Source of the DNA: Mesostigma viride
Lineage: Eukaryota > Streptophyta > Mesostigmatophyceae > Mesostigmatales > Mesostigmataceae
NCBI GenBank assembly: GCA_009746045.1
Contig: RPFO01000080.1
Span: 237,366-301,365 of the forward strand
Direction of reading: 5' to 3'
Length of the DNA stretch: 64,000 bases
In this document: in pieces, positions 23,561 to 63,373 of the stretch
Position numbering within the stretch: position 1 is the first letter of the stretch
Layout: every line of letters begins with the position of its first letter
Notes under the pieces: model-generated
What the model was told of the DNA's origin: nothing
The model's input: only the letters and a program-made list of their open reading frames with translations
Database searches by the model: none
Translations under genes and position numbers: made by a program

Positions 23561-23573
23561 ACAATCCTCTGGT

Positions 23574-42623: not shown

Positions 42624-42686
42624 GGTGGTCCCACGCGGAATGGGGTAGATTTTTGCAAGAAAAAAACGCTAATTTCAATCGTCCGA
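42624..42686 (+). repeat. Left TIR of the 20.7-kb element
   Basis: Reverse complement of 63296-63367 apart from an 11-bp gap and two mismatches. Further in, GCGCCGAAAT-like motifs recur (about 42700-42770), possibly subterminal binding sites. Confidence 0.85.
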
Positions 42687-43092
42687 AAACCGGACATTGC
42701 GCCGAAATTCTTGCCGAAAATTTGGCAGCCGAGCGAATTTTTCGCCGGACGGACTTTGCGCCGAAATTTTTTGTCTGCCGTGCTTCGAACTCAACCGACT
42801 CCTGCTTTTGCGTGCACTTTGTCCGATGCCTGCAGGCCACGCACGAATTTTGCGAATTTTGCGACCGAAATATGACGACTAGACAAGTTTAGCGACGACC
42901 TACATCGATCTATTGCCACTTTTGAAGTCCTTGGCTTGCTAGCAGCTTTTGATTATCAATGCCGGGAACAAAATTGCCGAAATTTTTTATTGAATCAGTA
43001 TATATATGTGCACATGTCCGTAATTTTATCATTCTCAATGAATTGCACATAAAGTCGACATTGTCGAGTATTTGACAACTTAGGCATTGCGC

Positions 43093-43695
43093 CTAGAAAA
43101 AGGTGCCCCATCCGTCGATGTCAAAATCGCCGAAGGAGTACACTCCCTGGTACTGGTCTCCCCTGTAGTTGGGAGGCTCGCCTGTATACATTTTGGTGTT
43201 CCACTTGGCCCCGCCGTTCTCCGCAGCAGCCAGGAACTCCTGCTGGGCCTCGGCCCTCAGGCGCATCATTGATACATTGGGAGAGCCCGGAATTTCCGTG
43301 CTCTCCACCACCACTCTCGCCTGATTGTCAGGCACGCATTGGTAAGCAGGGTTCAAATCTGAATCGGGTGGCACCAGATCGATCATGCCATTGCCGAACG
43401 CAATGACACCTGCACCCCACTGTGCAGAAGGTCCGAGCAACTCTACATCAATTCTGATGTTTGCAGCGTGCTCATTTTTGTCGACCATCACATAGGTATG
43501 CTGAGAACCGAAAATATTGCTCTGCTCCATTTGTGACAGTGTTAAATTTCGGCAAGGTTGGCTGCTTGCAATCGACAGGAAATTGGTGACCCCGACAGCC
43601 AGACGCGCAAGGGTTATAACTGCAGGTAGAACCCAAAATTTGTCGATAAGGAGTAATGGAAGGGCACGACCACCAGTCACTAGTATTCGCTTCAC
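43093..43695 (-). CDS. Hypothetical protein, left end of the 20.7-kb element
   Basis: A 200-codon open frame ending at 43093. The N-terminal 45 residues are hydrophobic (LPLLLIDKFWVLPAVITLA), but the true start may be a splice junction near 43545, since similarity-like sequence starts at NLTLSQMEQSNIFG. The rest (ANIRIDVELLGPSAQWGAG ... FGDFDIDGWGTFF) has a regular beta-rich look and an aromatic-acidic tail. I do not recognise the family. It is the outermost gene, pointing at the left TIR, downstream of the transposase-like gene. Confidence 0.5.
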   Translation of the reverse strand: MKRILVTGGRALPLLLIDKFWVLPAVITLARLAVGVTNFLSIASSQPCRNLTLSQMEQSNIFGSQHTYVMVDKNEHAANIRIDVELLGPSAQWGAGVIAFGNGMIDLVPPDSDLNPAYQCVPDNQARVVVESTEIPGSPNVSMMRLRAEAQQEFLAAAENGGAKWNTKMYTGEPPNYRGDQYQGVYSFGDFDIDGWGTFF

Positions 43696-43848
43696 CGGAC
43701 ACCTTTTTCAGCTTCCGGATAAAATTCAGCAAGAGCAGCGGCGATTAGATACTAAATATTGCGTTATTGGTTCGTACCGTACCCAGACAAAAATTGTACT
43801 AGTGACGCAATTGTACTAGGCGGAATGACAACTGCGCCCGGCAAATAA

Positions 43849-44063
43849 GTATTTATTGCTCCAACCCCACAAACTTGTTCCGGAGCTGTTCGAAGCGAAG
43901 AGCAATGGAAGGGATCGGACCCGAGCCAGATTTGAGTGCGGAACATGATGGCTGGCCTACCTCACTCCGAACATTAATGTGGACCCGGGTTCGAATCCTG
44001 TCAGTGCTATTCGCTTCGAACAGTTCCGGAACGATTTTTTTTGTGGGGGTGGAGCAATAAATT
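43849..44063. mobile_element. Foldback MITE-like element of about 215 bp
   Basis: Inverted arms 43849-43910 and 43985-44063 pair over about 60 bp (ATTTATTGCTCCA...CCCCACAAA..., then GTTCCGGARCTGTTCGAAGC). The loop carries CCCGGGTTCGAATCC, a perfect tRNA B-box string. No coding capacity. A target duplication was not clear. Confidence 0.65.
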
Positions 44064-44349
44064 CTCGACATGCAGAAACAAATGTCGAATAGATTGTGCA
44101 AAAAAATATCGAAATCCTTATCATTATTTAAATATACAGCATAAAATTATGTTGCAGTAAAAAATAACTGTTAATTGAAGGCCGCAAAAAATTATCAACT
44201 ACCCTTAAACTTGACCACAGAAAGATCTCGAAAAATATATACAATATATGCGGCCACCTTTTTACACCCTACTGAAGCCCCACTCTAAAGATATAATACG
44301 AGCCGAAACTAGGGCGTCGTCTACCCGCAGCGAGACCCCAATTTCTTGT

Positions 44350-45096
44350 TTAAGTCGGTGCCGGCCCCTCCGGGGCTTCATCCTTGATCACCAGCGCAGT
44401 AAGCCACTTGTCGAGCTCCTTGCTCATCCTGATGTCGGCACACATTCCGTCGCTGCGCACGCGTGCTTCTAGCCGGAGAGCCGGAGCGACGCAGAGATAG
44501 CAATTCACAAGCTCGGGCTGGCGTGACGGTGGCCAATCCTCAACGTTGAGCGTGAAATGCAGGGGGTCATGCTTATCCCGCTTCCAAATCCGAACGGGAA
44601 GAATGCCGTTCCCGGCGAGGAACAGCTCCTTCTCCCGTCCGTTCCGGCCCTCGACCCACCTCTCGAAGTTCTCGTCTAACACGATCGGCCCGGCTTCGCT
44701 TACAACCTCAGCCAACCAGAACGGGTGGATGGGATCGTGATCCGTGTCCTTGTCCGATGGAACTGCCACATAGTCGTGGAGTCTCATCTGCCGGCCCATC
44801 GCCTCCCGCTTGTCCTTCAGCTGCTCCCCCCGCGTCACCATGCGAACCGGAGGGTTGGGCTGGCTCGGTGGCAGCAAACGGACAGTTTTCATCGAGCTTC
44901 CTGCATCATTGAACTCGATGATAAACGACCACTCGCTTAGACATCCCTCAAACCGCCCAGCCAAACAGGGCGGACAGTAGCAGGAATAGCGCCTAATCAT
45001 CAAAAGGCCAGGGTCGGACTTGTCCAGTCGCCACCAATGCGCCTTCTTGATGCCAGGCACCTCCTCCACCTCCGCGCGTCGGCCGGACTCGACGTC
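44350..45096 (-). CDS. Transposase-like protein, C-terminal exon with Cys cluster
   Basis: This exon starts after an acceptor (TTGATGACAG / GACGTC) at 45096 in the phase that continues the DDE/D exon (AAG / GAC). It reads GIKKAHWWRLDKSDPGL, then a Cys cluster YSCYCPPCLAGRFEGC (C-x-C-x2-C-x7-C, likely zinc binding), then LHDYVAVPSDKDTD and a beta-rich region (HPFWLAEVVSEAG ... VRIWKRDK) that resembles a small barrel domain, and ends at 44350. The same DDE core followed by a short Cys cluster is something I recall from uncharacterised transposase-like proteins of cnidarians and arthropods (memory, not searched). Confidence 0.68.
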   Translation of the reverse strand, partial: DVESGRRAEVEEVPGIKKAHWWRLDKSDPGLLMIRRYSCYCPPCLAGRFEGCLSEWSFIIEFNDAGSSMKTVRLLPPSQPNPPVRMVTRGEQLKDKREAMGRQMRLHDYVAVPSDKDTDHDPIHPFWLAEVVSEAGPIVLDENFERWVEGRNGREKELFLAGNGILPVRIWKRDKHDPLHFTLNVEDWPPSRQPELVNCYLCVAPALRLEARVRSDGMCADIRMSKELDKWLTALVIKDEAPEGPAPT

Positions 45097-45506
45097 CTGT
45101 CATCAAATAGTTAGGACAAAAAGAATACCGTTCAAGTTAGCAAAATTGACCAAAAATCAATAAAACAGGGTATAGCTGCAGAGAGACCCCTTACAAAAAA
45201 AAAATTAACGACAAGACATCAAGTGATCAAAATTCGACACAGGGTATAGCTGCAGAGAGACCCCATTCGAATCATAATAACAACGTACGACAAGATATCA
45301 AGTGATCGAAATTCGACACAGGGTATAGCTGCAGAGAGACCCCATTCGAATCATAATAACAACGTACGACAAGATATCAAGTGATCGAAATTCGACACAG
45401 GGTATAGCTGCAGAGAGACCCCTTCATACCGATAGAACAAGCGAAATTTCATACCTAAAAGAAAAGCAACCCATTGACAGTATATAGGGTCTCTCTGCAG
45501 AGATAC
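45097..45506 (-). repeat. Intron with five hairpin copies, four in 74-79-bp tandem units
   Basis: Between the DDE/D exon and the C-terminal exon. Hairpins begin at 45168, 45242, 45321, 45400 and 45488. The first four share surrounding sequence (CAAGATATCAAGTGATCGAA, CGACACAGGGTATAGCTGC), so that segment was duplicated with its hairpin. The fifth is in the opposite form and supplies the splice donor. Confidence 0.75.
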
Positions 45507-46358
45507 CTTTATTGGGTTTGAATTTTTATAGAACAGCGGCAGTTGACGTCTTAAAACCTGAAATAACACAAAATTCCGTACCGGGGGTAAAAGGAAGAAG
45601 TGGCGAGTGACGTTCTCGGCCCGCGCGCGGGCCGACTCCCTGCTCGATGTCTTGCCGCCCTGCCAGTTCTGGTTCAAGTAGGCGACTAGCTGGTGGGTCT
45701 CAAGTATGTGCTGGTTTTCGGGAATCCTCTGCATTTCCCTCAAGACGCACTTGCACTTCGCTCCTTGACCATCCACCTCCCCCTTCCCATGCTGCTCCCC
45801 CATGTAGTGGAACTCAAAGGCCTGCAGGTCGGGATCCCCCATGAGCAGACCGTTAATCTGGTTAATCACGTACCTGGACTTAAACTGCACCGCGCAGTTG
45901 TCCGAGCACATGTACAGGTTTCGCACCTCTACCCCTACTTCTACCCGCAGGGTTTCCAGAATCTTGCGAAGAGCGTATACGAGTGCGCGCTCGCCCCGCT
46001 TGATACTGGAATCCCCCAGGAAAAAGAAGACGCGCTTTTCCAGCTCGCCGTTGAGCCGATAACGCACGATCATGGGCATCAGGATGTGGCTGCGCTTGTG
46101 GAAGTACTGCGACTGCAGTTGGACGTAGCTGCTGTTCTCGTAGTTCTCGGCCCAGTCGCCGTGCACGAGCACGTCCCCCTCTCTCAGATTCTTCTCCCGA
46201 TCCTTGATTGTATCCGCCTGCGACCAGGCCGTAAAGCAGTGCACGGTGAACTTGTCCCACCTCTTAAGAATCTCGTCCCGCAGCTCAGCTGGGGTGGACC
46301 TCATTTGGACTTGCTCGGGCCGCTTCACCTTCTTCGCCGCCCTGCCATCGGTCTCGCC
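45507..46358 (-). CDS. Transposase-like protein, DDE/D catalytic exon
   Basis: Bounded by an acceptor (GCGAAACAG / GGCGAG) and a donor (AATAAAG / GTATCT). The RNase H-like core shows VHGDWAENYENSSYV (Asp codon at 46155-46157), a beta strand FFFLGDSS, LYMCSDNCAVQFKS (second Asp, 85 residues later), and YMGEQHGKGEVDGQGAK (Glu or Asp, 41-43 residues later). DFAENY / SDGCAGQFK / HGKG-x-CDG is the motif series of a transposase-like family known mainly from animal genomes (recalled). It is open throughout. The intron after it begins with a hairpin element. Confidence 0.78.
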
Positions 46359-46519
46359 CTGTTTCGCAAAGGTCCGCAGACAGTTTCGATTTGCAATAAA
46401 ATCGCATTTCGATCAGATAACTGCAACTCACAAAGGGTCTCGCTGCAGCTATAGGTCACAAAAAAAAAAGTCAACAACATTTAACGGAGAAATAAAATCG
46501 AAACCTACTCACCCTCACC

Positions 46520-47935
46520 CTCGGGTCACAGTCTGCTCCACCATCTCGAACTTGAACCAATTCAGAATCTCCGTGGAATTCTTGTCCCGATCACACTGCA
46601 CCCAGTTATTATGGATGCCGCATGATTCCTCAGGACAGAACCCCTCCACACACGCCATCTTCAGTATGCGGTGAACCCTCTCCGTCCTCGGCACCCCATC
46701 TTCGTCCTCCACCAGCCTCTCAGAAATGTCGAGGTCTTCCAGGTCCCGTCCCCGCCATTCATCTTCCCCCTCCCCCTCTTCCATCCCCCCGCCCATTCCG
46801 CCCCCTTCACGCAGCCCGTTATCCCTGCCGTCAGTCTCGGCGGACACCGGGCAGTGAAAGTGCTTGATCCAGTCCGTCGAGTGAATGGCTTTCCACATTC
46901 CGCAAGTACCGTCCGGCTCTGTACTTGGAGCATCCCGCACACTCCGCGCCACACTTGCAGTTCTTGCCGTGGTTCGCATTGCAGTGCTTGGTCCACGCCC
47001 CCATGGCCGACTGCATGGTGACGTGCTTCTCACACGCGCACAGGTTCCTCTCCTTCCACTTGCCCTTGATGCAATCGGGCGCGTATTTGCAGAAGGTCGT
47101 GTAGCCCACGTGAATGCCCACGTCCTTATCATACTGGTTACTCCTTTTGTTCCAGTACGCATGCTTTTCGAGAAAGTGATTGTACATGTCCTCCTTGGAG
47201 GTCATGTAATAGCGCGCTCCCTCAACGGCGACGAGCACCCCGCGATTGCCATGACCCTCCCTGCTGTAAGTGCGCTTGACATCCTTCATCTGGGAGGAGG
47301 CGCGCGACTCATCATCGTGCATCCACGCGTCCACTATCGCGTCAATCACGAATTGCGGCAAAGGGCGCCCCTTGCGAGCCTGCGCGTGTCTGAGGTAGTC
47401 CAACTTCTGCTGCCTTCGTATCGCGCGAATTCCGCGAATCTTCTTGGCGTCCATCCCCGTCAGGTTCTCCAACTCCGCGGCCGAAAACTCCTTCTCCAAG
47501 TCGTCACCACAGTAAAGCGTGGACATCAGCACCATCCTGACGTCTCTGTCTGCGTCGCTTTTGGTCAGACCATCAAAAAAGCCGTTAATCCGAGCCACCC
47601 AGAACCTGTTCAGTTCTGCCATCCGCTCCTGATTGTAAAGCTTTTTCGCCTCCTCATGATACTTCCCGTGACCTAGTTCAGCGGCCCTAGAGTTAAAGCC
47701 AGCAATCATCTGGTCGAAAGCCGGCCCCCGCCCCTCGGGTTTTGTCATCGCCTGAGCCGCTTCAAACGCCTGGTCAGCGAAATATTCCCCAATAACCCTC
47801 TTTGATTTCGAGTATTCTCCCGGCCGCTTGACTTCCTTGGCTTCAGGCTGCGCTGGATTCTGGTTCTCATCTCCGAAAACCCTTTTTGCGCCAGTTGACT
47901 GCTTCGTCCCGGTGTTCAACTTAATTGCACTGAAT
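46520..47935 (-). CDS. Transposase-like protein, N-terminal exon, one frameshift
   Basis: The frame opens inside an intron and becomes coding near 47935 (LNTGTKQSTGAKRVFGDENQN). It contains a helical region with ENLTGMDAKKIRGIRAIRR, possibly a DNA-binding helix-turn-helix, then MHDDESRASSQMKDVKRTY, VGYTTFCKYAPDCIKGKW and CACEKHVTMQSAMGAWTKH with later CKCGAECAGC, a Cys/His-rich section that may bind zinc. A one-base slip near 46905 moves it to the frame reading WKAIHSTDWIKHFHCPVSAE and on to WFKFEMVEQTVTRG at the donor near 46520. The order N-terminal KFxxxxP / Cys-His region before the DDE exon matches the recalled family. Confidence 0.68.
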
Positions 47936-48383
47936 CCTGGACGACCGGACGCAAGGGCGAAAACTCCCACCCGTTCGCGTGCTGCATGCCATGACGACCG
48001 GCACAACGAAATCCATGCAAATCGAGTATCGTTGGGAAAAGCGACAATTACAGACAAAGTTCGAAAGTGTATCATTTTTTACCACGATTGGGGTCTAGCT
48101 GCAGCTAGACCCTTAGAGGGGCTTTTTCCGTTAGACGAAAAGATTACCTGATGTGGTGAACTTAGCATACCCCGACCAAGATTGGGGTCTCGCTGCAGCT
48201 AGACCCTTCATTGCGGCGTGCGATTGTTAAATCACAGACTTCTGATTCATTAATTTTATAGCAACCATAAAGAGGGTCTAGCTGCAGCGAGACCCTTGAA
48301 TTTAAGCTATTGCTTGTGGTTATAAATGGTCTAGCTGCAGAGAGACCCCAATAAGGACGAAAAGATTTCAGGTTTTCCTCACC

Positions 48384-48434
48384 TTCGCGGCTCATTCTCT
48401 TATTAGTTCTCCCAGAACACTCAGATACCTGCAT
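48384..48434 (-). CDS. Possible first exon of the transposase-like gene
   Basis: ATG at 48434 gives MQVSECSGRTNKRMSRE and reaches a donor GAAG / GTGAGG. The following 450 bp to 47935 would be an intron and carries four hairpin copies (48090, 48184, 48273, 48330). It is short, so this is tentative. Confidence 0.4.
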
Positions 48435-48849
48435 GGCGAGAATAACAAAAATAACACAGTAGCATTGATAAAATTGTTTATCAGAAAATATATATACTAA
48501 TTACAGTATATTTTGCAAAAGATTTTATAATATATTGTGAATAGCATGGTTAAATTCCACATACTTTAATAATATGGTATGTTAAAGTATATAGAATCAT
48601 TATTTAGTAAATCATTTACAAGAAAAAGTGGTATAGACTATTATTATTATATAGTTCGGCAATCTATGATAGTAAGACATACCGGATGTCAGGTTTATCA
48701 GCGGCCTCCAGGGCTATAGCGTCTCGCTGCAGCGTGACCGTTTGGTGCTATGACTGATTTCAGTAGATGTGCAGAAAAAAATTTATTTCCATGACCACAC
48801 CAGGAATCGAACCCAGAACCTCATTGTACATTTCTGCATGGTAACGATG
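48435..48849. other. AT-rich non-coding segment
   Basis: No gene. It contains a degenerate hairpin copy (48719) and, at about 48800-48820 on the minus strand, CTGGGTTCGATTCCTGG, a B-box-like string within a weak tRNA-like segment. Confidence 0.45.
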
Positions 48850-49120
48850 TCAGCCAAACATCCGAATGTTCCCAGGTAAATGGGCTGGAGGTCGTCTCTT
48901 TTTATACCTGCGGCCACAAGCACGGGTGACGGCATATTGGATGTCGTCCAATCCGCTAGCTTGGTTCCAAAAGATGGGATCGAGCTTTTGCACCAGCGCC
49001 GCGCTTCCAGTTTTCAGTTCCGTGGGGAGGAACGAGGATGCCACGTTTCCAATTTTTTCAATACCGTTCAGCCCTGTGACGCCGCGTCCGGTTTGCGAAT
49101 TGCGACCGTCCCATCGCCCA
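48850..49120 (-). CDS. Possible exon of unknown function
   Basis: A minus-strand open frame with DGRWDGRNSQTGRGVTGL, then IGNVASSFLPTELKTGSAAL and WNQASGLDDIQYAVTRACG, ending at 48850. Its 5' side starts just after a degenerate hairpin copy (49135), as other exons of this element do. No family is recognised and it may be an upstream gene piece. Confidence 0.35.
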
Positions 49121-49177
49121 TCGAAAAAGAAGCGCAGCCGCAGAGAGACCCCATAGCTAATAGTAACCAGCTGCAAC

Positions 49178-49905
49178 CGTTTGCATGCTACCTGCTTTTT
49201 TACAACATCGCTTTGCTACCTGTGCATAACGAAAGGAAATCGGTCTTCAAGCAATTAAGGCAATCGGTCTTCATTTTCCCGCATAAAGAAAAAAGGTGAG
49301 CTTTTGCCGCATCGTGGATGGTAGGCTGACAAATTGTTCTATCAAAAACGGCAACTAAACAGCGCATGCACGCCGACGACACAGTTAGCCAGCTGGGCGA
49401 AGACATGTCCTTGCTGCCATCGCAAGAAACTCTATGTTGCAGCAAGAGTGATAAAAATGTCTGGCTTCCTTCTTTTCGTTGCTAGCTAAACCCTGCAGAC
49501 ATCTCGGTAGAGTCAGCTAAGCCGATCCTAATCCACATCTGGCATCCATCCCTTTAGTCTAGTTGCCATGGAGCGTTTCTTGGTCTCGCACATGTCGATC
49601 ATGGTGGTGCTAGGCTTTCACTTGGGTCACCCTTTCCATGTTTGCTATGCCTTTGGTCTGGTTAGGTTATAGGTGTAGATGTGCACATACTGCATTTGCT
49701 GCGTTTCTAATCGGTGCTCCTGTTTGATGCTTTTTTTCCCCTTCATATCGTTTCGACGTTTGCATGCTACCTGCCGGATTATAACATCGGACGTTGCTAC
49801 CTGCCTGCATAACGATAGTTTGCAAGAAATCTTCATTTTGCCGAAACACAAAAAAAGGTGATCTTTTGCCGCAACGTGGATGGTAGGCTGACTAAAATTG
49901 TGCTG
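49178..49905 (+). repeat. Diverged direct duplication of about 150 bp
   Basis: Bases 49178-49345 and 49756-49905 share GTTTGCATGCTACCTGC, GCATAACGA, TCTTCATTTT, AAAAAAGGTGA and TGGATGGTAGGCTGAC in the same order. The second copy runs straight into the satellite. Confidence 0.75.
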
Positions 49906-49908
49906 CTA

Positions 49909-52900
49909 CGTATCAATACATGTGGGGGGGTGCTGCTACGTATCAATACATGTGGGGGGGTGCTGCTACGTATCAATACATGTGGGGGGGTGCTGCTACG
50001 TATCAATACATGTGGGGGGGTGCTGCTACGTATCAATACATGTGGGGGGGTGCTGCTACGTATCAATACATGTGGGGGGGTGCTGCTACGTATCAATACA
50101 TGTGGGGGGGTGCTGCTACGTATCAATACATGTGGGGGGGTGCTGCTACGTATCAATACATGTGGGGGGGTGCTGCTACGTATCAATACATGTGGGGGGG
50201 TGCTGCTACGTATCAATACATGTGGGGGGGTGCTGCTACGTATCAATACATGTGGGGGGGTGCTGCTACGTATCAATACATGTGGGGGGGTGCTGCTACG
50301 TATCAATACATGTGGGGGGGTGCTGCTACGTATCAATACATGTGGGGGGGTGCTGCTACGTATCAATACATGTGGGGGGGTGCTGCTACGTATCAATACA
50401 TGTGGGGGGGTGCTGCTACGTATCAATACATGTGGGGGGGTGCTGCTACGTATCAATACATGTGGGGGGTGCTGCTACGTATCAATACATGTGGGGGGTG
50501 CTGCTACGTATCAATACATGTGGGGGGGTGCTGCTACGTATCAATACATGTGGGGGGGTGCTGCTACGTATCAATACATGTGGGGGGGTGCTGCTACGTA
50601 TCAATACATGTGGGGGGGTGCTGCTACGTATCAATACATGTGGGGGGGTGCTGCTACGTATCAATACATGTGGGGGGGTGCTGCTACGTATCAATACATG
50701 TGGGGGGGTGCTGCTACGTATCAATACATGTGGGGGGGTGCTGCTACGTATCAATACATGTGGGGGGGTGCTGCTACGTATCAATACATGTGGGGGGGTG
50801 CTGCTACGTATCAATACATGTGGGGGGGTGCTGCTACGTATCAATACATGTGGGGGGGTGCTGCTACGTATCAATACATGTGGGGGGTGCTGCTACGTAT
50901 CAATACATGTGGGGGGGTGCTGCTACGTATCAATACATGTGGGGGGGTGCTGCTACGTATCAATACATGTGGGGGGGTGCTGCTACGTATCAATACATGT
51001 GGGGGGTGCTGCTACGTATCAATACATGTGGGGGGGTGCTGCTACGTATCAATACATGTGGGGGGGTGCTGCTACGTATCAATACATGTGGGGGGGTGCT
51101 GCTACGTATCAATACATGTGGGGGGGTGCTGCTACGTATCAATACATGTGGGGGGGTGCTGCTACGTATCAATACATGTGGGGGGGTGCTGCTACGTATC
51201 AATACATGTGGGGGGGTGCTGCTACGTATCAATACATGTGGGGGGGTGCTGCTACGTATCAATACATGTGGGGGGTGCTGCTACGTATCAATACATGTGG
51301 GGGGGTGCTGCTACGTATCAATACATGTGGGGGGGTGCTGCTACGTATCAATACATGTGGGGGGGTGCTGCTACGTATCAATACATGTGGGGGGGTGCTG
51401 CTACGTATCAATACATGTGGGGGGGTGCTGCTACGTATCAATACATGTGGGGGGGTGCTGCTACGTATCAATACATGTGGGGGGGTGCTGCTACGTATCA
51501 ATACATGTGGGGGGGTGCTGCTACGTATCAATACATGTGGGGGGTGCTGCTACGTATCAATACATGTGGGGGGTGCTGCTACGTATCAATACATGTGGGG
51601 GGGTGCTGCTACGTATCAATACATGTGGGGGGGTGCTGCTACGTATCAATACATGTGGGGGGTGCTGCTACGTATCAATACATGTGGGGGGGTGCTGCTA
51701 CGTATCAATACATGTGGGGGGGTGCTGCTACGTATCAATACATGTGGGGGGGTGCTGCTACGTATCAATACATGTGGGGGGTGCTGCTACGTATCAATAC
51801 ATGTGGGGGGGTGCTGCTACGTATCAATACATGTGGGGGGGTGCTGCTACGTATCAATACATGTGGGGGGGTGCTGCTACGTATCAATACATGTGGGGGG
51901 TGCTGCTACGTATCAATACATGTGGGGGGGTGCTGCTACGTATCAATACATGTGGGGGGGTGCTGCTACGTATCAATACATGTGGGGGGTGCTGCTACGT
52001 ATCAATACATGTGGGGGGGTGCTGCTACGTATCAATACATGTGGGGGGGTGCTGCTACGTATCAATACATGTGGGGGGTGCTGCTACGTATCAATACATG
52101 TGGGGGGGTGCTGCTACGTATCAATACATGTGGGGGGGTGCTGCTACGTATCAATACATGTGGGGGGTGCTGCTACGTATCAATACATGTGGGGGGGTGC
52201 TGCTACGTATCAATACATGTGGGGGGGTGCTGCTACGTATCAATACATGTGGGGGGGTGCTGCTACGTATCAATACATGTGGGGGGGTGCTGCTACGTAT
52301 CAATACATGTGGGGGGGTGCTGCTACGTATCAATACATGTGGGGGGTGATGCTACGTATCAATACATGTGGGGGGGTGCTGCTACGTATCAATACATGTG
52401 GGGGGGTGCTGCTACGTATCAATACATGTGGGGGGTGCTGCTACGTATCAATACATGTGGGGGGGTGCTGCTACGTATCAATACATGTGGGGGGGTGCTG
52501 CTACGTATCAATACATGTGGGGGGGTGCTGCTACGTATCAATACATGTGGGGGGGTGCTGCTACGTATCAATACATGTGGGGGGGTTCTGCTACGTATCA
52601 ATACATGTGGGGGGGTGCTGCTACGTATCAATACATGTGGGGGGGTGCTGCTACGTATCAATACATGTGGGGGGTGCTGCTACGTATCAATACATGTGGG
52701 GGGTGCTGCTACGTATCAATACATGTGGGGGGGTGCTGCTACGTATCAATACATGTGGGGGGTGCTGCTACGTATCAATACATGTGGGGGGTGATGCTAC
52801 GTATCAATACATGTGGGGGGTTCTGCTACGTATCAATACATGTGGGGGGGTGCTGCTACGTATCAATACATGTGGGGGGTCTGCTACGTATCAATACATG

Positions 52901-53215
52901 TGGGGGGTGCTGCTACGTATCAATACATGTGGGGGGTGATGCTACGTATCAATACATGTGGGGGGTGCTGCTACGTATCAATACATGTGGGGGGTTCTGC
53001 TACGTATCAATACATGTGGGGGGTGCTGCTACGTATCAATACATGTGGGGGGGTGCTGCTACGTATCAATACATGTGGGGGGTGCTGCTACGTATCAATA
53101 CATGTGGGGGGGTGCTGCTACGTATCAATACATGTGGGGGGTGCTGCTACGTATCAATACATGTGGGGGGTGATGCTACGTATCAATACATGTGGGGGGT
53201 GATGCTACGTATCAT
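49909..53215 (+). repeat. 30-bp satellite, about 110 units
   Basis: The unit is TGCTGCTACGTATCAATACA then TGTGGGGGGG (30 bp with seven G, 29 bp with six). The first 18 or so units (to 50460) are identical; G6 units and base changes (GATGCTACG, TTCTGCTACG) increase towards 53200. The 30-bp period keeps all three forward frames open, giving false ORFs of up to 1000 codons. Confidence 0.97.
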
Positions 53216-53995
53216 TTAATAATTCATGCCATCACCCCCCCACATTTAATTTTTAATGCCAGCACCCCCCAACATTCATTTATTCATGCCATCACACCCC
53301 CACATTCTTTTATTCATGGCAGCACCCCCCACATTTATTTATTCATGCCATCACCCCCCCACATTTAATTATTAATGCCAGCACCCCCCAACATTCATTT
53401 ATTCATGCCATCACACCCCCACATTCTTTTATTCATGGCAGCACCCCCCCACATTTATTTATTCATGCCATCACCCCCCACATTTAATTATTAATGCCAG
53501 CACCCCCCAACATTCATTTATTCATGCCATCACACCCCCACATTCTTTTATTCATGGCAGCACCCCCCCACATTTATTTATTCATGCCATCACCCCCCAC
53601 ATTTAATTATTCATGCCAGCACCCCCCAACATTTATTTATACGTAGCAGCACCCCCCACATTTAATAATTCATGCCATCATCCCCCCACATTTAATTATT
53701 CATGACAGCACCCCCCACATGTATTGATACGTAGCAGCACCCCCCACATTTATTTATTCATGCCATCACACCCCCACATTCATTTATTCAGGCCAGCCCC
53801 CCCACATTCATTTATTCATGCCAGCACCCCCCACATTCATTTATTCATGCCATCACCCCCCCACATGTAATTATTCATGCCAGCAACCCCCCACATTAAT
53901 TTCTTCATGCCAGCACCCCCCCACATGCATTTATACATAGCATCCCCCCCCACATGTATTTATACGTAGCTTCCCCCCCCACATGTATTTATTCG
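53216..53995 (-). repeat. Inverted, diverged satellite arm
   Basis: From 53216 the array runs in the opposite orientation: CCCCCCACAT then TTATTTATTCATGCCATCAC, alternating with TTAATGCCAGCAC forms at about 29-bp intervals. A few units (about 53720-53745) are exact reverse complements of the left unit (CACATGTATTGATACGTAGC). Three higher-order blocks near 53250-53600 are nearly identical. Confidence 0.9.
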
Positions 53996-54540
53996 TGGTC
54001 GTAAGGGTCTCGCTGCGGGTAGACCCTCGGAATTTTGTTTTTGTATTGACGTTAGGGTCTCGCTGCAGCGAGACCCCAAGGAATGTCAATTTTTCATGTT
54101 TTCATGATGGGGGGTCTTTCTTTTCTCACCCTTAAAATGATTTGTTTTTGTATCGGTGTTAGGGTCTCGCTGCAGCGAGACCCCTACGAATGTCGACTTT
54201 TAATGTTTGCAAGATGGGAGGGGGCTTTCTTCGCTCACCCTAAAAATGATTTGTTTTTGTTTGACGTTAGGGTCTCGCTGCAGCGAGACCCCAAGGAATG
54301 TATACTTTTTTATGTTTGCATGATGGGAGGTTGCTTTTTTTCGCTCACCTTAAAAATGATTTGTTTTTGCTTGAAGTGAGGGTCTCGCTGCAGCGAGACG
54401 CCAAAGTTTTGCATTAAAGTAAATGTCCCTTTTAGAATCCACGAAAGGGTCTAGCTGCAGCGAGACCCTCCCCATCGTTTTTCTGCCGGCGATTCAGATT
54501 CTGAATGACATTTGTGAAACTTGCTTTTTTGATATTGTTC
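53996..54540 (+). promoter_or_regulatory. Leader region of the right-arm gene with six hairpins
   Basis: Six hairpin copies at 54006, 54054, 54162, 54269, 54381 and 54447, several in related units of about 107-112 bp (TTTGTTTTTG, then GGGTCTCGCTG, then AATGTATAC or AATGTCGAC, then AAAATGATTTG). An acceptor TTCTGCAG sits directly before the ATG at 54541, so this is probably a 5' leader intron (inference). Confidence 0.6.
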
Positions 54541-55744
54541 TGCAGATGTCGTCCTCCTATTCCGATTCTGTCAAGGCCACTCCCGTTTCACCCAAGATGA
54601 CGTCGAACACCTCGCCGGACCGAACGGCAACAGAGGCGTTTCCTCCGTTGCCGGTCGGTCCCGTAAATGCTCTGGCGAGGTCCCCCCCACCGAGTCCCCC
54701 TCGCCCTCCAAGTCCAACTTGCCCCCCAGCGAGTTGGACAGAATTTTACCCCCCAACTCTCTCGCTGCTGCGTCTCGCGCTCCGTCCCGCTCTCCGCCCC
54801 GTAAGTCTCCATCGCCGCCCCCCAAGTCGGCCGGAGCTACTGCGTCCCGCTCGCCGCCCCGCAAGTCCCCCAAGTCCCCCGCAACTGCGACCCGTTCGCC
54901 GAACCGCAAGTCCCCCTCTCCGCCCAAAGTTCCCCCCGCTACCGCGTCCCGCTCTCCTTCTCGCAAGTCCCCCTCGCCGTCAACCAAGAACCCCGCAACT
55001 GCGTCCCGCTCGCCGTCCCGCTCTCCTTCCCCCAAGTCCCGCTCGCCGCCACCCAAGTCCCCCGCTTCTGCGTCCCGCTCGCCGCCACCCAAGTCCCCCG
55101 CTTCTGCGTCCCGCTCGCCGTCCCCCAAGCATTCCAGTTCTAAGCGTAAGCCTGCCCGAGTGGGTAGAGGAAGACGACCGCACCAAAGAGCTCAGGAAGC
55201 TGAGGAAGTCTATCAATGAGCTTGTTGAGGAGGACGAGCGCGATAAGACTAACGGGAGGCCTGAAGACCCGGACTCGCCGGTTCGGGAGTCGCGTCGGCA
55301 GCGGTTGTCCGATTTGTTAGCAATGGCCGCAACATTTGCTGACGACTACGCGGCTCTCGACAAGAAGGACAAGGAGAAGGAGAAGGCGGAGAGGGAGGCC
55401 ATCGAGAAGGCGGAGAGGGAGAGGGTGGAGAGGGAGGAGAAGGAGAGGCTGGAGAAGGCGGAGAGGGAGGAGGAGGAGAGGGAGTACAAGGAGAAAAAGG
55501 CTGCCCAGGAGAAGGAGCACAGGATCCTGGTGGCGAAGCAGAAGGAGGAGGCGAAGAAGAAGACGGAGGCGGCAGCGAAGGAGCTTCGTGCGGAGGAGGC
55601 TGCTTTTTTGCAGATGCGACAGGAGAGGATGAAGGCGGACGAGGCTGCGAGGAAGGAGGAGGAGGCTGCGAAGGCGGTTGAGGGGGAGAAGGACGGAACG
55701 TGAAGAAGGGGTGGGCTCCCGAAGGATGTTCAGTCGATTATCAG
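54541..55744 (+). CDS. Right-arm gene, exon 1: Pro/Arg/Ser-rich region and Glu/Lys coiled coil
   Basis: Starts MSSSYSDSVKATPVSPKM. Bases 54650-55150 are repeats of about 30 bp that read as Pro/Arg-rich in this frame and as SR-type (SRSPPRKSPSPPPKS) in the next frame, both open. From about 55150 the frame reads VEEDDRTKELRKLRKSINEL, then a coiled coil of about 110 residues (EKAEREAIEKAERERVEREE-like). A TGA closes the frame at about 55703, but another frame carries VKKGWAPEGCSVDYQ to the donor at 55745 in phase with exon 2, so a base slip near 55695 is likely. Confidence 0.55.
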
Positions 55745-58700
55745 GTATGTTTATTATGTGAGACGTACATTTCTCAGATGGCTTTTGAACGGTGTGTGTG
55801 TATCGTAGAAAGGGTGGGATTTTATGTCATACTTTGATCGTAAGGGTCTATCTGCGGAGAGACGTTGACCTAGGAGTTAAGGTTGTTGACGACGACGACG
55901 ACGATGTGTGGCCTTTTTTTTACTCTTGTTGTCTGCAGCCCTCCACGGTGGCCATTCTGAAACAGTACCTGGCTCAGGCTGAGTCTGAGTCTGGGGCGAG
56001 TCGTAAAGCCGAAAAGGGCTTGATCGGCTTGATCCGCTTTCTTTCGGCCGAGATAGCGTTTGCAGAGAAGTCCGGTGTCGTCGTGGACCGTCCGGAGTCG
56101 CCAGACATAATTTGGAAGAACGACCGCCTGGGCCGTCTTGCATTGTTCGAAGCCACACAGCGAGCCATTCATGGGAAGAGGGTCGTTGGTGACGACATTT
56201 ATGAGGTTTTGAAGATCGCGCAGTCGTGCATCCTTAATCTGAAGGAGGATGTCGGACGTTACTTTCCCCGTCGTGCTTTAATATGGTCGACGCTCTTTGA
56301 TGAGGTTGAAAAGTTCGAGGTCCACATGGGCTTCACATGTATCGAGGCTTCCTATATGGAAACCTTGAAAATCACTGCGTTGCATCAGCTCTTTAAACTC
56401 ATGACTGGAGATATGAAAGCGGATTCGAGGGCTTCACTGTCGGAAGATGAAGTGTTTGATATTGTCAGGAAAGGATTTGTTGACATGTCCAACAGTGACT
56501 TTATCGTAATTGTGCCGGGAAGAATGAATGACGTAGGAGGATTGGAGGAGCGCGCACATGAAGTGATCGCGCATTTGGACATGACAAGAGACCACTTACT
56601 GCAATCTTTTGTTAAGTGGCGGACCGACTTTCTTGTCAGCCCGGACGCCAGCCTTTCGCGGGAAGCGGTCGCTTTCTTTTTGGATTGGGCTGGACAGGTG
56701 ATCCAAAGTTTCCGGCACCGGGAGGACTTCCATGTTATTCAGACATATAAGCCACACCGGGAAGTCGTCCAGGAATGGTTGGATCAAATCTCGTTGGTTG
56801 ATTGTCTCCAGAGTATCCGAACCAAGAGACACGGAGTGGTCTGATTTAGAGGCGGGAGGCCATTGGCAGTCCCTCGAGTTGTTCTTCGAGGCGGAATTGA
56901 GGCGTAATCTGGAAAAGGAGAGAGCCCATCAAGTGCCGATATGGCCTTTGGGGAAGATTTTGAGGAGGTGGAAGTTCTACGTTTCGGTACGTTAACTTGC
57001 CGATATCGTTTATCGATTTGGTTTGTTTCCATTCCCTGAATAGGGCTCTATATGCTGACCAACCTTCATGGTTTGTCCTGTCATATCATGCAGGGGGGCT
57101 CCATGCCAGGGGACGTATCGGAGGATGTAACGAATTTGTCAGACTTGGTTGATAAGGTGGGTGCTTGTCCGTCGAGTTTCCACGAGCATCTTACATGGGG
57201 TCTAGCTGCAGGTAGACCCTCACCCTTTTATTGAGACTGACATCTTCGGCTAATTTCAACGGTGCCCCCAACCAATCTGTTGTCTTTTTTCAGGGGGCGG
57301 CTGCGGCGATGGCTGTTGACAGTGCTGGTATTTGGTCTGGACTCGAGATGGAAATGGTAAGCATTAAACGATATCCGGATGTCTGCATTTCGCCTGAAGT
57401 TTTAGTGAGCGCATTATGCGAAATATACAAATGTCGACTAATTTTGATTTCCAATGAGCTGTCGTATTCGGTGTTGACAGGCGGGGGGTTTGGCCTCAGC
57501 AGGCGCTGCCGGAGAGGAAGAAAACGCTGGAGGAGATGAGGATGGGGGGGATGAAAACGCTGGAGGAGATGAGGATGGGGGAGACGCTGAGGGAGAAGTG
57601 GCTGTGCAGGTACGTTCATCCGCCGCGAGTTCGTGTGATTTTTTTCGTGCTGAGGGGTATCTCCGCAGAGAGACGATGGTGCAACAATCGAACTGAGGTC
57701 AAGTCCCTTCTTGTTCGTTTTTTTTTGTCATGCAGGCGGGGGCTGTCGCTGGGGGTACTGCGGGGGGGAAGGCGGCGAAGCCCGCATTGACTGAGCATGA
57801 AAGGGAAAAGCTGGATTCCCGCAAGAAGGTTGCGAAGGATCATATTATTGCTGTTGGCCTGATCATGCTTAAGTCTCCGCCCGATGGCGTCGATTCGGAG
57901 GGACCTGCGGGGTCCGAGTTTCGCAAGTACCTGACACGACTTGAGGCGGAAGTCGATGCCGATTTCGATACGGAGGTGTTGGGTGCCGCTACCTTTAGAG
58001 TGAATTGGCATATGAATTTGTAAATCTGGTGAAGTCGAAAGCCACCAAGAATTTCAAGTGGCAGCCTAAGGAGTACTCAGAGGCAAAGGTTGACAAGATC
58101 GAGAAATTCATGAAGGCTGATTTTCGTCGTCGGGCCGCTGAGGGAAAAAGGGCGCTGAATGCGGTGGCAAAGGCCAACAGTAAGAAGAACGCGGAGGCGA
58201 AGGCGGCGGAGAAGGAGGCGAAGAAGGCGGAGAAGGAGAAGGCTAAGGAGGCCAAGAAGCAGCAGAAAACTGGACAGGTACGATTGTTGTGAAAATTTAG
58301 ACCTCTCGCTGCGGGTAGACGCTGACTGGCTGCGGGACTTGGTGTTTAGTGTCAGTAAGGTATTATTCCAACAGAACTTTGTTCGTCCCTGAACAGGATG
58401 TCGTGGTCGGCCTAAATATTACTGACTTGAGCAAATCCTGCGGTCCTTTTCGATTTTTTACTTCAGGATGACGGGGGGGACGAAGACGCCACGGTGGAGA
58501 AGAAGTTACCTGGTCATGACGCCGTGTTCGCGCTGGTGAAGGATATGCTCAAGTACTGCTCGAGTAGGCGGATGGCGGACGTCGATGACCTGCCAAACTG
58601 GCCCGAGTTCTCCCCCTTTCTTGAGCTGCTCCGGTCACTCAACAAGCTTTTTAAGGAGGGGGTGCTCACGAGCAGTGGGAACCCGGACACCGACCCTATC

Positions 58701-61700
58701 ATTGAAAGCTGGAAGCCTTCGAAAAAGGTCGACTCGAACAAGGAGGTCAGGGACCAGAACATCCGGAAGGCCAATTCTCTCAGGGAAACGCGTTGGATTC
58801 GGCCGGCCGATTTTAAGCAGACCGGATGTTTCAGTATGCGGATCCAGACGGTCAACGCGCTTATTTTGCCAGAGGCTTTGAGGCAGCGGCGTTTAAACCT
58901 TGAAACCATTAAGGAGAACGGCCGCATTCTCCTCAATGCGCGGGACAACGCCTTGCACTTCAAGGTTGTTGTCCCGGTCTGGCAGTTCCCTTTCCAGGCG
59001 CTTGCCGAATCTCAACCTGACCTGTTCGACAAGCAAATCTTGTGCATGCCGGATTTCGTCAAGTGGCTGAAGATTCACCACGGCGCCAAGATTGACGCGG
59101 AGGATGTGGGGTCCAGGTACTTCCGGCCCCTTTCGGATACTGAAGTCGACGTGTGGCTTAACACGGAGTCCACCACCTCTTTCCTCGCGAGAGGACTTGA
59201 GTGGCGTACCTACGCCAGGGTGGACGAGGTGGAAGCAGTTTTGCCTCAGGAGATCAGGGCAGTCGGGATGTTTTCAACCTGCTGTGCAATACTGCGATGA
59301 AGTCCTACGATCCGAAATTTTTTGAGGAACGGGTACCGGTACCGTATCTGGTTCTCCGGTACGCGGTGGTGGATGGGAACCACTACTTTAAGGGGTTAAA
59401 GTCGTTTCTCAGGGGGCCGGATGGCGGGTGGGGAGAGGTTCGGGCAATGATGTGCGAGGGTGGGGCGGAGTCCAATTTCGCAAATACTCCTAAGGAGGCG
59501 GAGCACGCCTTCCAGGACCTGTTGCGGAAATTCCGTGGTGGTTACATGGGTACGAACGTCATTCTTCTCAAGGGTGGCGACCTGCTCCCGTCGTGGAGTG
59601 AGCTGCGAAATCTACCTAAGGCAAAAGAAGATGTAAGCTATCTATTTTGGCAGGGTCTAGCTGCGGGTAGACCCTCGGAATTTTCGTGGTTGTTTTTTGT
59701 GTGCGCTTCAAGTTTTTTGCGAGGGTCTCGCTGCAGCTAGACCCTCTCCTTTTTTTTGTTGGAATTTTCGTTGCGTATTGTCGGCCGTTTCTTTTTCGAA
59801 TTTTGTTAGGGTCTATCCGCAGCTATACCCCTCGCCTTTTATGACTGAGTTTTGTCGTTGCTCGCTCGATGTTAATTGATGTCGCAGGCGGTGCTGACCG
59901 GCAAGCTGGAGAAGCTGTTCGACATCGCCAAGGGGGCGAATTCGGAGGACTTAGCCGTGGCGGATCGTACGCTGGGCCAGGCGTTGCTTGACGTGTGGAA
60001 CTACAACAAGCTATATCTATACGGCAAAGTCACGCGTGGGAAGGGCCACTATATTGCGGATGGCCACTATACCAATCTGCTCACGTACATCCTCCCGGCT
60101 ATGCGGCAAGCGGGGGGAAGGGAAGGGAATGTGGAGCCGGCAGCGGTGGATGTACACGAGGAGGAAGCAGAAGGAAAGAAAAAGCCGGCCCACAGCATTG
60201 CTTCAGTGCATTCCGCTTACAGTCGCACGCTGGCCAACACGTTTCTCCGTCTGACACAGGAGCAGACTGATGATCCTGCCTCAACGAAACCCGCGCCTGA
60301 GGAGGTGATGATGCAAAGGTGCAAATTCGCGAATGCAGAGGGGGAGAAGAAAGGCCAGAAGGTCTCTTGGACTTCTTTCAGGAACTTGGCCAGCCTTCCT
60401 ATGATGGACGCCGTGATCGATTGCATCATGAGCTGCCAGGTTGGACCGGAAAAGCTCACCAAGTTGGTGGAGATCGCCAAGGATGTGCTGGAGTGCCTGC
60501 GGCTGACCATTTGCGCCAGATTCAAGGAGGATGTGACGCTGGAAGCGCGATGCAAGGACGCAAATGGCAAGGAGTTTGTGGCGTCTCATATTTTCGAACT
60601 CGTCTTCAATCTCCATCCTCTCCTCGGCCGGTCGGCAGGAAGGAGATTGTGGCCAGATACCGGGAATTTTGGGATGTGGCCGTCATCATAACGAGGAACA
60701 TCGCCTACCTTCTTAAAGCCAAAAAACACGCCGCACATCTGAGGATTCCGAGAAAGGATCTCAGTAATGGCAAGATCGACTTTCAGGAGATTCTGCTAAA
60801 AGAGAGCGAGGACAAGACGGTGGGTTTGGCACTTTTGGCTCCGGAAGCGTTCAGGAAGTACGCTCCAAAAGTTGGATTACTCGAAGGGGGGGAAGGAGGC
60901 GGCGATGAAGGGGCCGGTGAAGGGGCTGGAGAAGGGGAAGGGGAAGGGGAAGGGGAAGGAGACGGAGGCGAAGAAGGAGGAGGAGGCGAAGGAGGAGGAG
61001 GAGTGGGACGTGAAGTATGAGTGGCAGAGTGTGGACTGGGGCCGTCGCCGGGTCTGGTTTTGCTGTCAGGAACTAGACGGTGATGATGATGACAAGTCGC
61101 TCGTCAAGCAGGTGGCAGGCGAGGTTGCCTCAGCTTCAGCCCGCCCCTTTCCCTTGGGCAGGTCCCTTCCGTGCCTGAGCCTGCTGAACTTGGCGAACAT
61201 TTGGGGTGATAAGTGGAGTAACTTTCAGAGAGGGTGGTGGGCGTTCGGTCCTTGCCCGACAGCTTCGGACATTCCCCAACCGGGCGGGATGTACGATCAT
61301 GTGCTGAAGGCTTGCGCCCACGAGTTTTTCTCCAGGTTCGAACCGATGGTGATCGTGTTTGGTACCGAGACGGAGATTAAGGGGTTTCAAGAGATAGTGG
61401 AAAGGATCGGGAAAGGGAGTGAATTGTGGGAGCGGCTTGAACAGGGGGAAGGTGATGGGGGGCCTAGGCTCGGAAGGGCGAAGAAGCGAAAAGCTTCCCA
61501 CGAAGCTGGGGGATTGTCCGCCGTGGTGGAGAGGGATGACCAACAGTTGTTGGAGGGAGGGGATGGAGGGGATGGAGGTCCGGCAGGAGGGTCTAACCGC
61601 GGAGAGACCCCCGTCGAGGTCAGAACGCAGCAGGCCGAACAGATGACGGGGCCTGAAGGTGATTCGGATCCGCCTGCGGCGAAGAAGCCCGCTTCTCAAG

Positions 61701-63074
61701 TGACTCGACGGGCAGTCGTGTCACTTGTTGAGGATGATGGAGGTGGGCCTTCCAAGCCTGCCGCGTCGCAGCCCGTTTTTCAGGTTCCGAAGAAGCAGCT
61801 TCGGGTTCCCGCCGACTCTGCCCACCCCGGCGCCTCTGCCCAGTTCTCAGGTACCGAAGAAGCAGCTTCGGGTTCCCCCGCCGACTCTGGCCATTTCTCA
61901 GGTACCGAAGAAGCAGCTTCGTAAGCCAGTTGTGGCAGTGGCTGATTCGGACGACGATGCTGAGGAGGAGGAGGAGGAGGAGGACGACGATGCTGAGGAG
62001 GAGGAGGAGGAGGAGGAGGAGGAGGAGGAGGAGGAGGAGGAGCAGCACGTTGCTACCAAGAAATCCGCCAAGGGTGGGAAGGCTGCGGAGCACGTTGCTT
62101 CCAAGAAATCGGCCAAGGTGGGGAAGCCTCCCAAGCCTGCCCTGCCTCAGAAACGGCGTCGAAAAGCAGTTGTGCTTTCAGATTCGGACGATGAGGAGGA
62201 GAAGGAGGAGGAGGATGGCGGCGGAGAGGAGGAGGACGGGGGAAAGGAGCGCGTTGCTTCCAAGAAGTTACCCAAGACCGCGAAGACTGCCAAGGTTGCC
62301 GAGCCCGCCAAACCCGCCCCGGCGCCTGCCCCCCACCCCCAGACGGGGTCTACCTGCGAGCAGAGGTCGAAGGAAAAGGCCAAAAAGGGTAAGAAAAAAT
62401 CTGCGAGTGAATTCTGGTATGTAGAGTGTTTTGATTTTTTACGGTTGGCAGTCCGATTTCTACTAACTCGATTTTAGTCATGCGTTGATGGCATGATCGG
62501 TTTGCTCGCAGGTAATGAGGATGTGGAGCAGTTACTTCGCTTGGCTAATGTGGCGGTGGGCTTCGGACCAGCGGCTGTACATGCTGACACTTCCGGACGG
62601 GAGGAGCCTAAGGGGGCGGAAGACAGTCAGGCGGGCGATGAGGATGATGACAAGCCCACGTTGGAAATGAGACTTATGGACGGGGAAATGGGGTTCGGAG
62701 CACCAGAGGCCTTTTGGTGTGATGGGTGGACTGCAGCCATTATGCAAGCAGGGAACAAGGATACGGCTACGCCAATGTATGCCAAGCTAGAAGACGTCAT
62801 GCTTTATGGGCAGGTGTCTGGATACGACACCAAGTGGAGGGACGTCGCATTTAAGTTTTTCGCTGAGGGGGAGAAGGGAGGGAAGTTGAAGAACAAGTTG
62901 TGGTGGATGCCGCTGGACTACGCGATGAAGGTGGTAAAGCTGACGGATGGCAAGAGCTGGAAGGATGTGGAAGTCTGGGCGCCTGCAAAGGAGATCGATA
63001 AGAAGAGGAGGAACTCGACAACGGAACAGCAGATCGCGGAAGCGAAATTACGGAAGAGGCCCTCGAAAGTGTGA
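54541..63074 (+). CDS. Giant multi-exon protein of the 20.7-kb element (outer limits of gene model)
   Basis: Nine exons are proposed from GT-AG junctions with matching open frames: 54541-55744, 55939-56996, 57094-57156, 57294-57356, 57481-57609, 57736-58275, 58467-59632, 59888-62416 and 62512-63074. That totals about 2,400 codons. Frameshifts are needed near 55700, 56820, 58010, 59270, 60635, 60870 and 61825, and the last splice does not keep phase. Composition runs from a Pro/Arg/Ser-rich N-terminus, through a charged coiled coil, globular regions with no known motif, and acidic/basic low-complexity tracts to a globular C-terminus. No enzyme motif is seen. It could be two or more genes. It lies opposite the transposase-like gene, pointing at the right TIR. 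Confidence 0.5.
55939..56996 (+). CDS. Right-arm gene, exon 2: globular region
   Basis: Begins PSTVAILKQYLAQAESES after a TCTGCAG acceptor. About 300 residues of mixed helical sequence include IIWKNDRLGRLALFEATQR, GDDIYEVLKIAQSCILNL, FGFT-like VHMGFTCIEASYMETLK and DFIVIVPGRMNDVGG. A slip near 56820 leads into EWSDLEAGGHWQSLELFFEA and the donor TCG / GTACGT. No family is recognised. Confidence 0.6.
57736..58275 (+). CDS. Right-arm gene, exon 6: Lys/Ala-rich region
   Basis: AGAVAGGTAGGKAAKPALTE, then a segment with HIIAVGLIMLKSPP and FRKYLTRLEAEVDADFD, a slip near 58010, then FVNLVKSKATKNFKWQPKEY and a Lys/Ala/Glu-rich helical tail (EAKAAEKEAKKAEKEKAKEA). It ends at a donor CAG / GTACGA. The next intron contains one hairpin. 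Exons 3-5 before it are short and Gly/Asp/Glu-rich. Confidence 0.55.
58467..59632 (+). CDS. Right-arm gene, exon 7: globular region
   Basis: Reads DDGGDEDATVEKKLPGHDAV, then LPNWPEFSPFLELLRSLNKL, RETRWIRPADFKQTGCFSMR, VVVPVWQFPFQALAESQPDL and MPDFVKWLKIHHGAKI. A slip near 59270 continues SRDVFNLLCNTAMKSYDPKF, PVPYLVLRYAVVDGNHYFKG and LLPSWSELRNLPKAKED at the donor. This is well-folded looking sequence of about 385 residues without a recognised motif. Confidence 0.6.
59633..59887 (+). other. Intron with three hairpins
   Basis: Donor GAT / GTAAGC and acceptor GTCGCAG / GCG. Hairpin copies at 59654, 59723 and 59809 are separated by about 70-85 bp of T-rich sequence, and each resembles the leader units upstream of exon 1. 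Confidence 0.7.
59888..62416 (+). CDS. Right-arm gene, exon 8: globular then low-complexity region
   Basis: AVLTGKLEKLFDIAKGANSE, then YNKLYLYGKVTRGKGHY and a helical part to FELVFNLHPLLGRSAGR. Slips near 60635 and 60870 lead through EIVARYREFWDVAVIITRNI and a Lys/Gly/Glu repeat to VKYEWQSVDWGRRRVWFCCQ and NIWGDKWSNFQRGWWAFGP, a Trp-rich globular stretch. After about 61450 it is low complexity: three QVPKKQLR repeats, a Glu run (61966-62042), AEHVASKKSAKVGKP-type repeats and a second acidic block. Hairpin sequences at 61590 and 62343 are read here as GGSNRGETPV and TGSTCEQRSK. Confidence 0.55.
62512..63074 (+). CDS. Right-arm gene, exon 9: C-terminal globular region
   Basis: After the acceptor GCTCGCAG the frame reads GNEDVEQLLRLANVAVGFGP, then LMDGEMGFGAPEAFWCDGW, MYAKLEDVMLYGQVSGYDTK, KLKNKLWWMPLDYAMKVVKL and ends AEAKLRKRPSKV at 63074. 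The upstream exon ends in a phase that would create a stop, so the splice or one base is not as drawn. If the ATG at 62493 is used it could be a separate 193-codon protein. No family is recognised. Confidence 0.55.
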
Positions 63075-63295
63075 GGGAAAGTTAGCACTTGGACATGCGC
63101 TGGCAATGCTCGTCCTATGGTTAATACAAAGGTTAGGATGATGTCGAGTCTCTCCACGTAAAATTTACATGAATTACTAACTTTCAAGCCTCTCGATGTG
63201 GAATGTACGCTCAAATTGACATGAATTAAGCATTATGACACCAAATTAGCTCGAAAATACGCGATCGGACGCCAAATTCGCGCGAAAAAAAGATA
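63075..63295. other. Right subterminal non-coding region of the 20.7-kb element
   Basis: AT-rich 3' flank of the last exon. It contains repeated short strings (GGACGCCAAATT, ATATCGGACG, CTCTCCACGT / CTCTCGATGT) that may be subterminal sites. Confidence 0.45.
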
Positions 63296-63367
63296 TCGGA
63301 CGATTGAAACTAGCGTTTTTTTCTTGCAAAATGCGCCAAAAATGACCCCATTCCGCGTGGGACCACC
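63296..63367 (-). repeat. Right TIR of the 20.7-kb element
   Basis: Counterpart of 42624-42686, ending CCGCGTGGGACCACC and followed by CTCCTG, the target duplication. Confidence 0.85.
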
Positions 63368-63373
63368 CTCCTG

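Follow-up and report, generated by a model that had tools for sequence, protein, structure and literature searches.

The question raised by a 64-kb stretch of Mesostigma viride DNA (the window, meaning the whole sequence analysed, placed at G000:C1106:237366-301365 of the 439.9-Mb assembly) is whether a unit of 20.7 kb within it, bounded by terminal inverted repeats (TIRs) and carrying two large divergent genes, is a mobile element and, if so, of which kind. A preliminary description had proposed a DNA transposon family with a 6-bp target duplication that was little described, if at all. The evidence favours, with a probability of roughly 0.8, a TIR-flanked DNA transposon family of M. viride in which one strand carries the predicted transposase gene together with a small gene, and the other a giant gene. 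The earlier proposal stands insofar as other full units were found and the transposase has no significant match to a Pfam superfamily, while its 6-bp duplication has been replaced. The third gene, the palindromes, the facing minisatellites and the frame jumps of the window copy had been missed.

Element ends, target duplication and copies in the genome

The outermost repeats are exact inverted copies of each other, and the alignment of the two ends, including an inner block common to both, scored 89, compared with a maximum of 26 in 50 shuffles. This bears out the matching ends 20.7 kb apart and the common inner block reported previously, whereas the perfect outer match grows from 23 to 24 bp. 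The additional G is assigned to the TIR because the same base precedes GGTGG at every end read, including both ends of all 20 pairs, and the termini of the element are consequently GGGTGG..CCACCC. The flanks of the window copy read CTCCTG on both sides only when this outer G is excluded from the TIR; the C and G by which the match is lengthened to six letters agree by chance.

Facing TIR pairs separated by at most 50 kb were counted by eye among 100 listed places of TIR matches, which yielded 26 pairs, and 23 of these were read (the remainder being two C224 pairs and C225). An exact 4-bp duplication was observed at 20 of the 23 (17 of 20 by place and 3 of 3 from 3-kb loci), whereas a six-letter match, judged in three pairs from 3-kb loci by comparing the printed flanks, was present only at C36, C446 and C580. 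The exact 6-bp CTCCTG duplication was therefore rejected in favour of TCCT. All 20 typed pairs consist of one left-type and one right-type end. A target duplication of fixed length adjoining matching TIRs at several sites is what is expected of a TIR DNA transposon.

At a threshold of ≤3 mismatches, the genome contains 479 TIR matches (242 forward and 237 reverse), compared with 1 and 0 for the reversed control. Five copies that were fetched (C1, C85, C407, C446 and C557; 20.6-25.4 kb) have main blocks 93.6-99.5 % identical to the window element, tandem arrays being excluded from these values. Among the matches listed, both large genes lie divergently between the TIRs, as in the window, in at least 14 of the 26 facing pairs, to which C446 is added by alignment; one large gene was listed at C100, C580 and C224:6164045, and neither at C2:5423874, at C69:197574 or in six pairs of 10.3-10.7 kb. 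The further loci at which both TIRs bound a similar unit, proposed earlier as a check, thus exist, with 4-bp rather than the anticipated 6-bp duplications. The occupation of different sites by near-identical copies is a sign of recent movement in this alga, whose place is close to the streptophyte base.

Two unusual arrangements of ends were also noted. Two right-type ends face outwards, 13.4 kb apart, at G000:C16:15427 (-) and 28872 (+), and perhaps belong to neighbouring or rearranged copies. Two left-type ends in the same direction, 685 bp apart, at G000:C1:7892889 and 7893574 (both minus; L007/L008), suggest a neighbouring partial or second copy.

The predicted transposase

The split minus-strand gene with the motifs GDWAENY, SDNCAVQFK and HGKGEVDG was confirmed: the motifs are present, and the exons reproduce the gene models P0001 (a Mesvir1 model, 96 % identical) and P0002, including a tiny first exon, the boundaries of the first intron having been set by eye against these two models. 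The gene is predicted to encode an RNase H-fold DDD transposase. A core model built from P0002 and four relatives (mean pLDDT 73.7, pTM 0.74) follows the RNase H order, and Asp581, Asp665 and Asp708 of P0002, invariant in all five aligned sequences, sit in the model where the DDE/D residues are expected: Asp581 directly behind the first strand, Asp665 directly behind the strand that comes after the long helix, and Asp708 where a later helix begins. Such a core, as a prediction, is that of the RNase H-like DDE/D transposases of TIR DNA transposons. The label DDD is preferred to DDE because the D of HGKGEVDG is invariant across the five sequences and its E is not.

In a first homologue search, which scored the 7,999 best candidates, relatives were found in Mesostigma (P0002, 60 %; P0004, 48 %, with 9 member sequences), on an uncultured contig (P0003, 48 %) and in a stick insect (P0005, an orphan protein; 26 %, E 6e-9). 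The last is the single relative found beyond algae and uncultured DNA; it shares the D..D..HGKGxVD core and upstream Cys residues, and is known here without element ends or partner genes. The link drawn earlier to HGKG-type orphan open reading frames (ORFs) of animals is supported by one protein. P0005 scores 21.4 bits against DUF7869, below the Pfam cut-off of 26 bits, and P0002 likewise remains below it; by sequence comparison, the predicted transposase appears distantly related to an insect orphan close to DUF7869. Neither IMG/VR nor the prokaryote contigs searched yielded a confirmed relative. PDB sequences gave no match to P0002, and a profile match there to a tRNA synthetase (E 0.18) was taken as chance.

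A type of transposase otherwise met in this analysis as an insect orphan and on one uncultured contig is here connected with element ends, a duplication of the target, partner genes and derivatives that lack genes. On a further reading, which we consider somewhat more likely than not, the animal HGKG orphan proteins would belong to the superfamily of the Mesostigma element or be remnants of it.

Affiliation with known superfamilies

The element is apparently a cut-and-paste transposon of an undescribed superfamily, as judged from Pfam, the duplication, the termini and the literature. No description of it was found in the literature searched on algal, giant and DDE-type transposons, Repbase lying outside both comparisons. 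One alternative, which we regard as less likely than not, is that the element belongs to a superfamily that already has a name and makes 4-bp duplications (Sola, Chapaev, Academ or Ginger), but is so divergent that Pfam fails to recognise it. The length of the duplication and the predicted RNase H-like core are compatible with such membership, and Pfam holds only part of the content of Repbase. However, at E up to 10 P0001 has no Pfam match and P0002 none that is significant, its best being TniQ (0.11) and DUF7869 (0.12), so that no transposase of these superfamilies is matched in Pfam, and the GGGTGG termini are unlike those of these groups.

Two further groups were rejected. Kyakuja-Dileera-Zisupton (KDZ) elements are large eukaryotic elements with Cys-rich transposases and are represented by a model in Pfam. 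Neither P0001 nor P0002 matched this model at E up to 10, and Zisupton has 8-bp duplications (PMC12730594) rather than 4 bp. IS3EU/GingerRoot elements resemble the Mesostigma element as DDE/D transposons with TIRs, but are characterized by usually 6-bp duplications and by TA..TA termini, which complete IS3EU families have without exception and GingerRoot for the most part (PMC10045372, PMC12730594); neither feature is found here.

The giant gene, the third gene and a sister family

The plus-strand giant gene in the other arm was confirmed as a multi-exon gene. Donor and acceptor motifs are found at its predicted introns, a few of the typed boundaries being shifted by one or a few bases, and codon usage, scanned with the transposase gene as training set, gave moderate coding support, with jumps, in most exons and no clear support in others. 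For a 711-residue middle part of the protein, the 8,000 best candidates by shared words included no homologue at E up to 10, and nothing convincing was found for the protein in Pfam, NCBIfam or PHROGs. Its motif VVDGNHYFKGL, which we had taken to be ParB-like, obtained no support in these three collections, and that reading was dropped.

In the genome, one exon of the giant gene has at least 142 matches (141 scored of 821 candidates), and by our count among the matches listed 37 complete or near-complete rows are open over 435-436 aa without a stop, compared with 289 in the window copy. Thirteen of the 142 rows, at 61 % identity and with open frames of 349-444 aa, represent a sister family. 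The corresponding query with the core of P0002 (150 matches scored of 716 candidates) separates 65 rows at ≥94 % from 85 window-type rows at 68-69 %. For at least ten of the 13 sister giant exons, a P0002-type transposase lies approximately 12-34 kb away on the contig concerned, again in divergent arrangement; no such partner was among the matches listed for C1:14096505, C129 and C228. Two further giant-gene pieces, at 51 % and 59 %, are located on C68.

One sister element, C1:2457890-2478263, is bounded by 25-bp perfect TIRs, GGCCGGGCCCACTTCGAATGTTCCG, identical to the window TIR at 14 of the first 20 positions, a likeness equalled in 0 of 20,000 shuffles. Other sister ends were found singly (C1801, C113, C87 and C148) or, at C57, as a pair that is separated by 42 kb and lacks a duplication. 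The third gene, which is intact and 100 % identical in four of the five fetched window-type copies and split in C1, is present in sister ends on C1 and C551 at 59 %, and in two pieces on C435. Given the values for the giant exon (61 %), the transposase core (68 %) and the third gene (59 %), together with the related TIR, the same set of three genes accompanies related ends in both families, at approximately 40 % protein divergence. Since the giant protein is kept across two families, its conservation suggests that the element needs a very large partner protein, which would be unusual among cut-and-paste elements.

Palindromes, gene-less derivatives and a possible mechanism

The window contains 24 occurrences of a 22-bp palindrome, GGGTCTNNCTGCAGNNAGACCC, at ≤3 mismatches, compared with 0.07 expected, and all 24 are inside the element. 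Predicted introns and the presumed giant-gene leader account for 20 of them, an exon for one and other places for three. This distribution would fit intron or splicing devices (introner-like sequences or RNA hairpins) rather than mobility sites, an explanation that we consider unlikely: exons may simply not tolerate palindromes, and two gene-less elements of 10.3 kb retain 22 palindromes each. Because of this retention, the sequences suggest that the palindromes serve as DNA sites in mobilisation, as a better reading than a role in splicing, and they open the way to a direct binding test.

These two elements (C36 and C280), the two of six short pairs whose inner sequence was read, are located at different places, are 99.98-100 % identical and have different duplications (GGAG and AGGC). 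Neither has a tblastn match to P0001-P0005 (E 1e-5), and the third gene is likewise unmatched in C36, the one compared. At the thresholds used, they have in common with the window the ends and part of the right-end region 62458-63368, and they contain inverted arrays of their own. At a larger scale, the 10.3-kb elements (L071-L074) are near-palindromic, the inverted arrays of their two halves matching at 82-93 %. The complete element in turn contains two 30-bp G-rich arrays that face each other between the transposase and giant genes.

In the mechanism we infer, the DDD transposase would bind the TIRs and the element would be moved by cut-and-paste with a 4-bp stagger; the gene-less elements would move in trans, because they retain TIRs and palindromes. 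More tentatively, the giant protein may be required as a partner, acting perhaps in DNA-binding assembly or in regulation, with the palindromes as internal sites of the giant protein or the transposase, a combination to which we give rather less than an even chance. Spm/CACTA and MuDR, which combine a transposase, a second protein and internal sites, would work similarly, whereas the Mesostigma element differs from them in duplication length, termini and sequences and in its far larger second protein.

A virus-like origin, with replication and capsid genes lost or hidden, would agree with the length of approximately 20 kb, the TIRs, the several genes and the internal arrays, but is highly improbable given the 4-bp duplication, the lack of any homologue found for the giant gene and the absence of matches to DNA polymerase B, integrase, packaging ATPase or capsid proteins (Pfam, NCBIfam and PHROGs) in the element ORFs scanned, which cover part of the frames. 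Polinton/Maverick elements, which have 6-bp duplications, were rejected on the same grounds; the comparison to Polintons and IS3EU drawn previously from a 6-bp duplication falls with it. The likeness that remains is one of TIRs and size range (15-25 kb; PMC6431247). Exact scans of IMG/VR with the TIR and the palindrome gave no match.

State of the window copy and points against the transposon interpretation

Several observations weigh against the interpretation of the unit as a functional transposon family with the parts proposed above. The 4-bp duplication is missing in three of the 23 pairs (C100, C310 and C382), and in the one sister pair read (C1) it is imperfect (ATTA/ACTA). The core model is built on five sequences, and the RNase H fold is a prediction from it; Glu694 of P0002 is likewise invariant in these sequences, so that the third catalytic residue is not certain. 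No palindrome occurs in 12.5 kb fetched from C68 around the sister giant-gene pieces, and the site is therefore not common to that region. Moreover, the window copy has several frame jumps in the giant gene, and near 56830 an in-frame stop lies between the anchors in two other copies, the rest not being judged.

The points of frame jump were compared in five other copies, apart from those in the giant gene near 55150 and 61780. The single jump in the transposase (near 46930, within exon 46519-47981) affects an exon that is open in four of the five, and the catalytic stretch is open in all six copies, including the window. In the giant gene, the frame is open near 59255 and near 60640 in all five, near 60880 in three of the five, and near 57995 in three, with one jumped and two fragments not judged. 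As the frame is open in the majority of copies at most of the points that could be judged, the jumps were rejected as a sign of a dead family. In the window copy, sequencing indels and real decay cannot be told apart; the assembly is PacBio-based (PMC6947507).

Features of the element and the remainder of the window

Table 1. Coordinates of the element and its parts, in window positions
Feature	Position	Strand	Basis or remarks
Whole transposon, 20,746 bp	42623..63368		TIRs and 4-bp duplication; full-length relatives
Target-site duplication TCCT, left copy	42619..42622		Printed flanks; 4 bp from comparing 23 pairs
Target-site duplication TCCT, right copy	63369..63372		Printed flanks
Left TIR, 24 bp, GGGTGGTCCCACGCGGAATGGGGT	42623..42646	+	End alignment, comparison of copies
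Right TIR, exact inverted copy of left TIR	63345..63368	-	End alignment, comparison of copies
Inner block common to both ends, left	42648..42686	+	End alignment
Inner block common to both ends, right	63296-63334		End alignment
Third gene, 145 aa, no known family	43093..43530	-	Conservation in copies and sister family
Predicted transposase gene	44350..48395	-	Exons 48383-48395, 46519-47981, 45582-46341, 44350-45096; match to P0001/P0002
Exon with predicted RNase H-fold DDD core (GDWAENY / SDNCAVQFK / HGKGEVDG)	45582..46341	-	Alignment and structure model
Giant gene, ~10 exons, several frame jumps	54549..63074 (approximate)	+	Codon-usage scan, splice motifs, genome copies, sister 61 %
30-bp G-rich tandem array, ~111 copies	49900..53214	+	
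Related 30-bp array, ~26 copies, opposite direction	53213..53994	-	
Five 22-bp palindromes	45168..45508		Third transposase intron
Four 22-bp palindromes	48091..48348		First transposase intron
Six 22-bp palindromes	54005..54468		Presumed leader of giant gene
Three 22-bp palindromes	59653..59830		Giant-gene intron
Single 22-bp palindromes	43612, 44317, 48719, 55844, 57198, 61589		

Outside the element, the window contains retrotransposon-like ORFs with overlapping pol-like frames (22231-25776 and 34366-35394), which match an aspartyl protease (E 4.2e-9) and, weakly and below the cut-off, an integrase (rve, E 0.004). GC-rich tandem repeats of approximately 105-258 bp occupy 9727-10702, and long tandem arrays, built of units of 149 bp and of 8 bp (TGCGTGGC), are located at 12210-13268 and 14183-15559.

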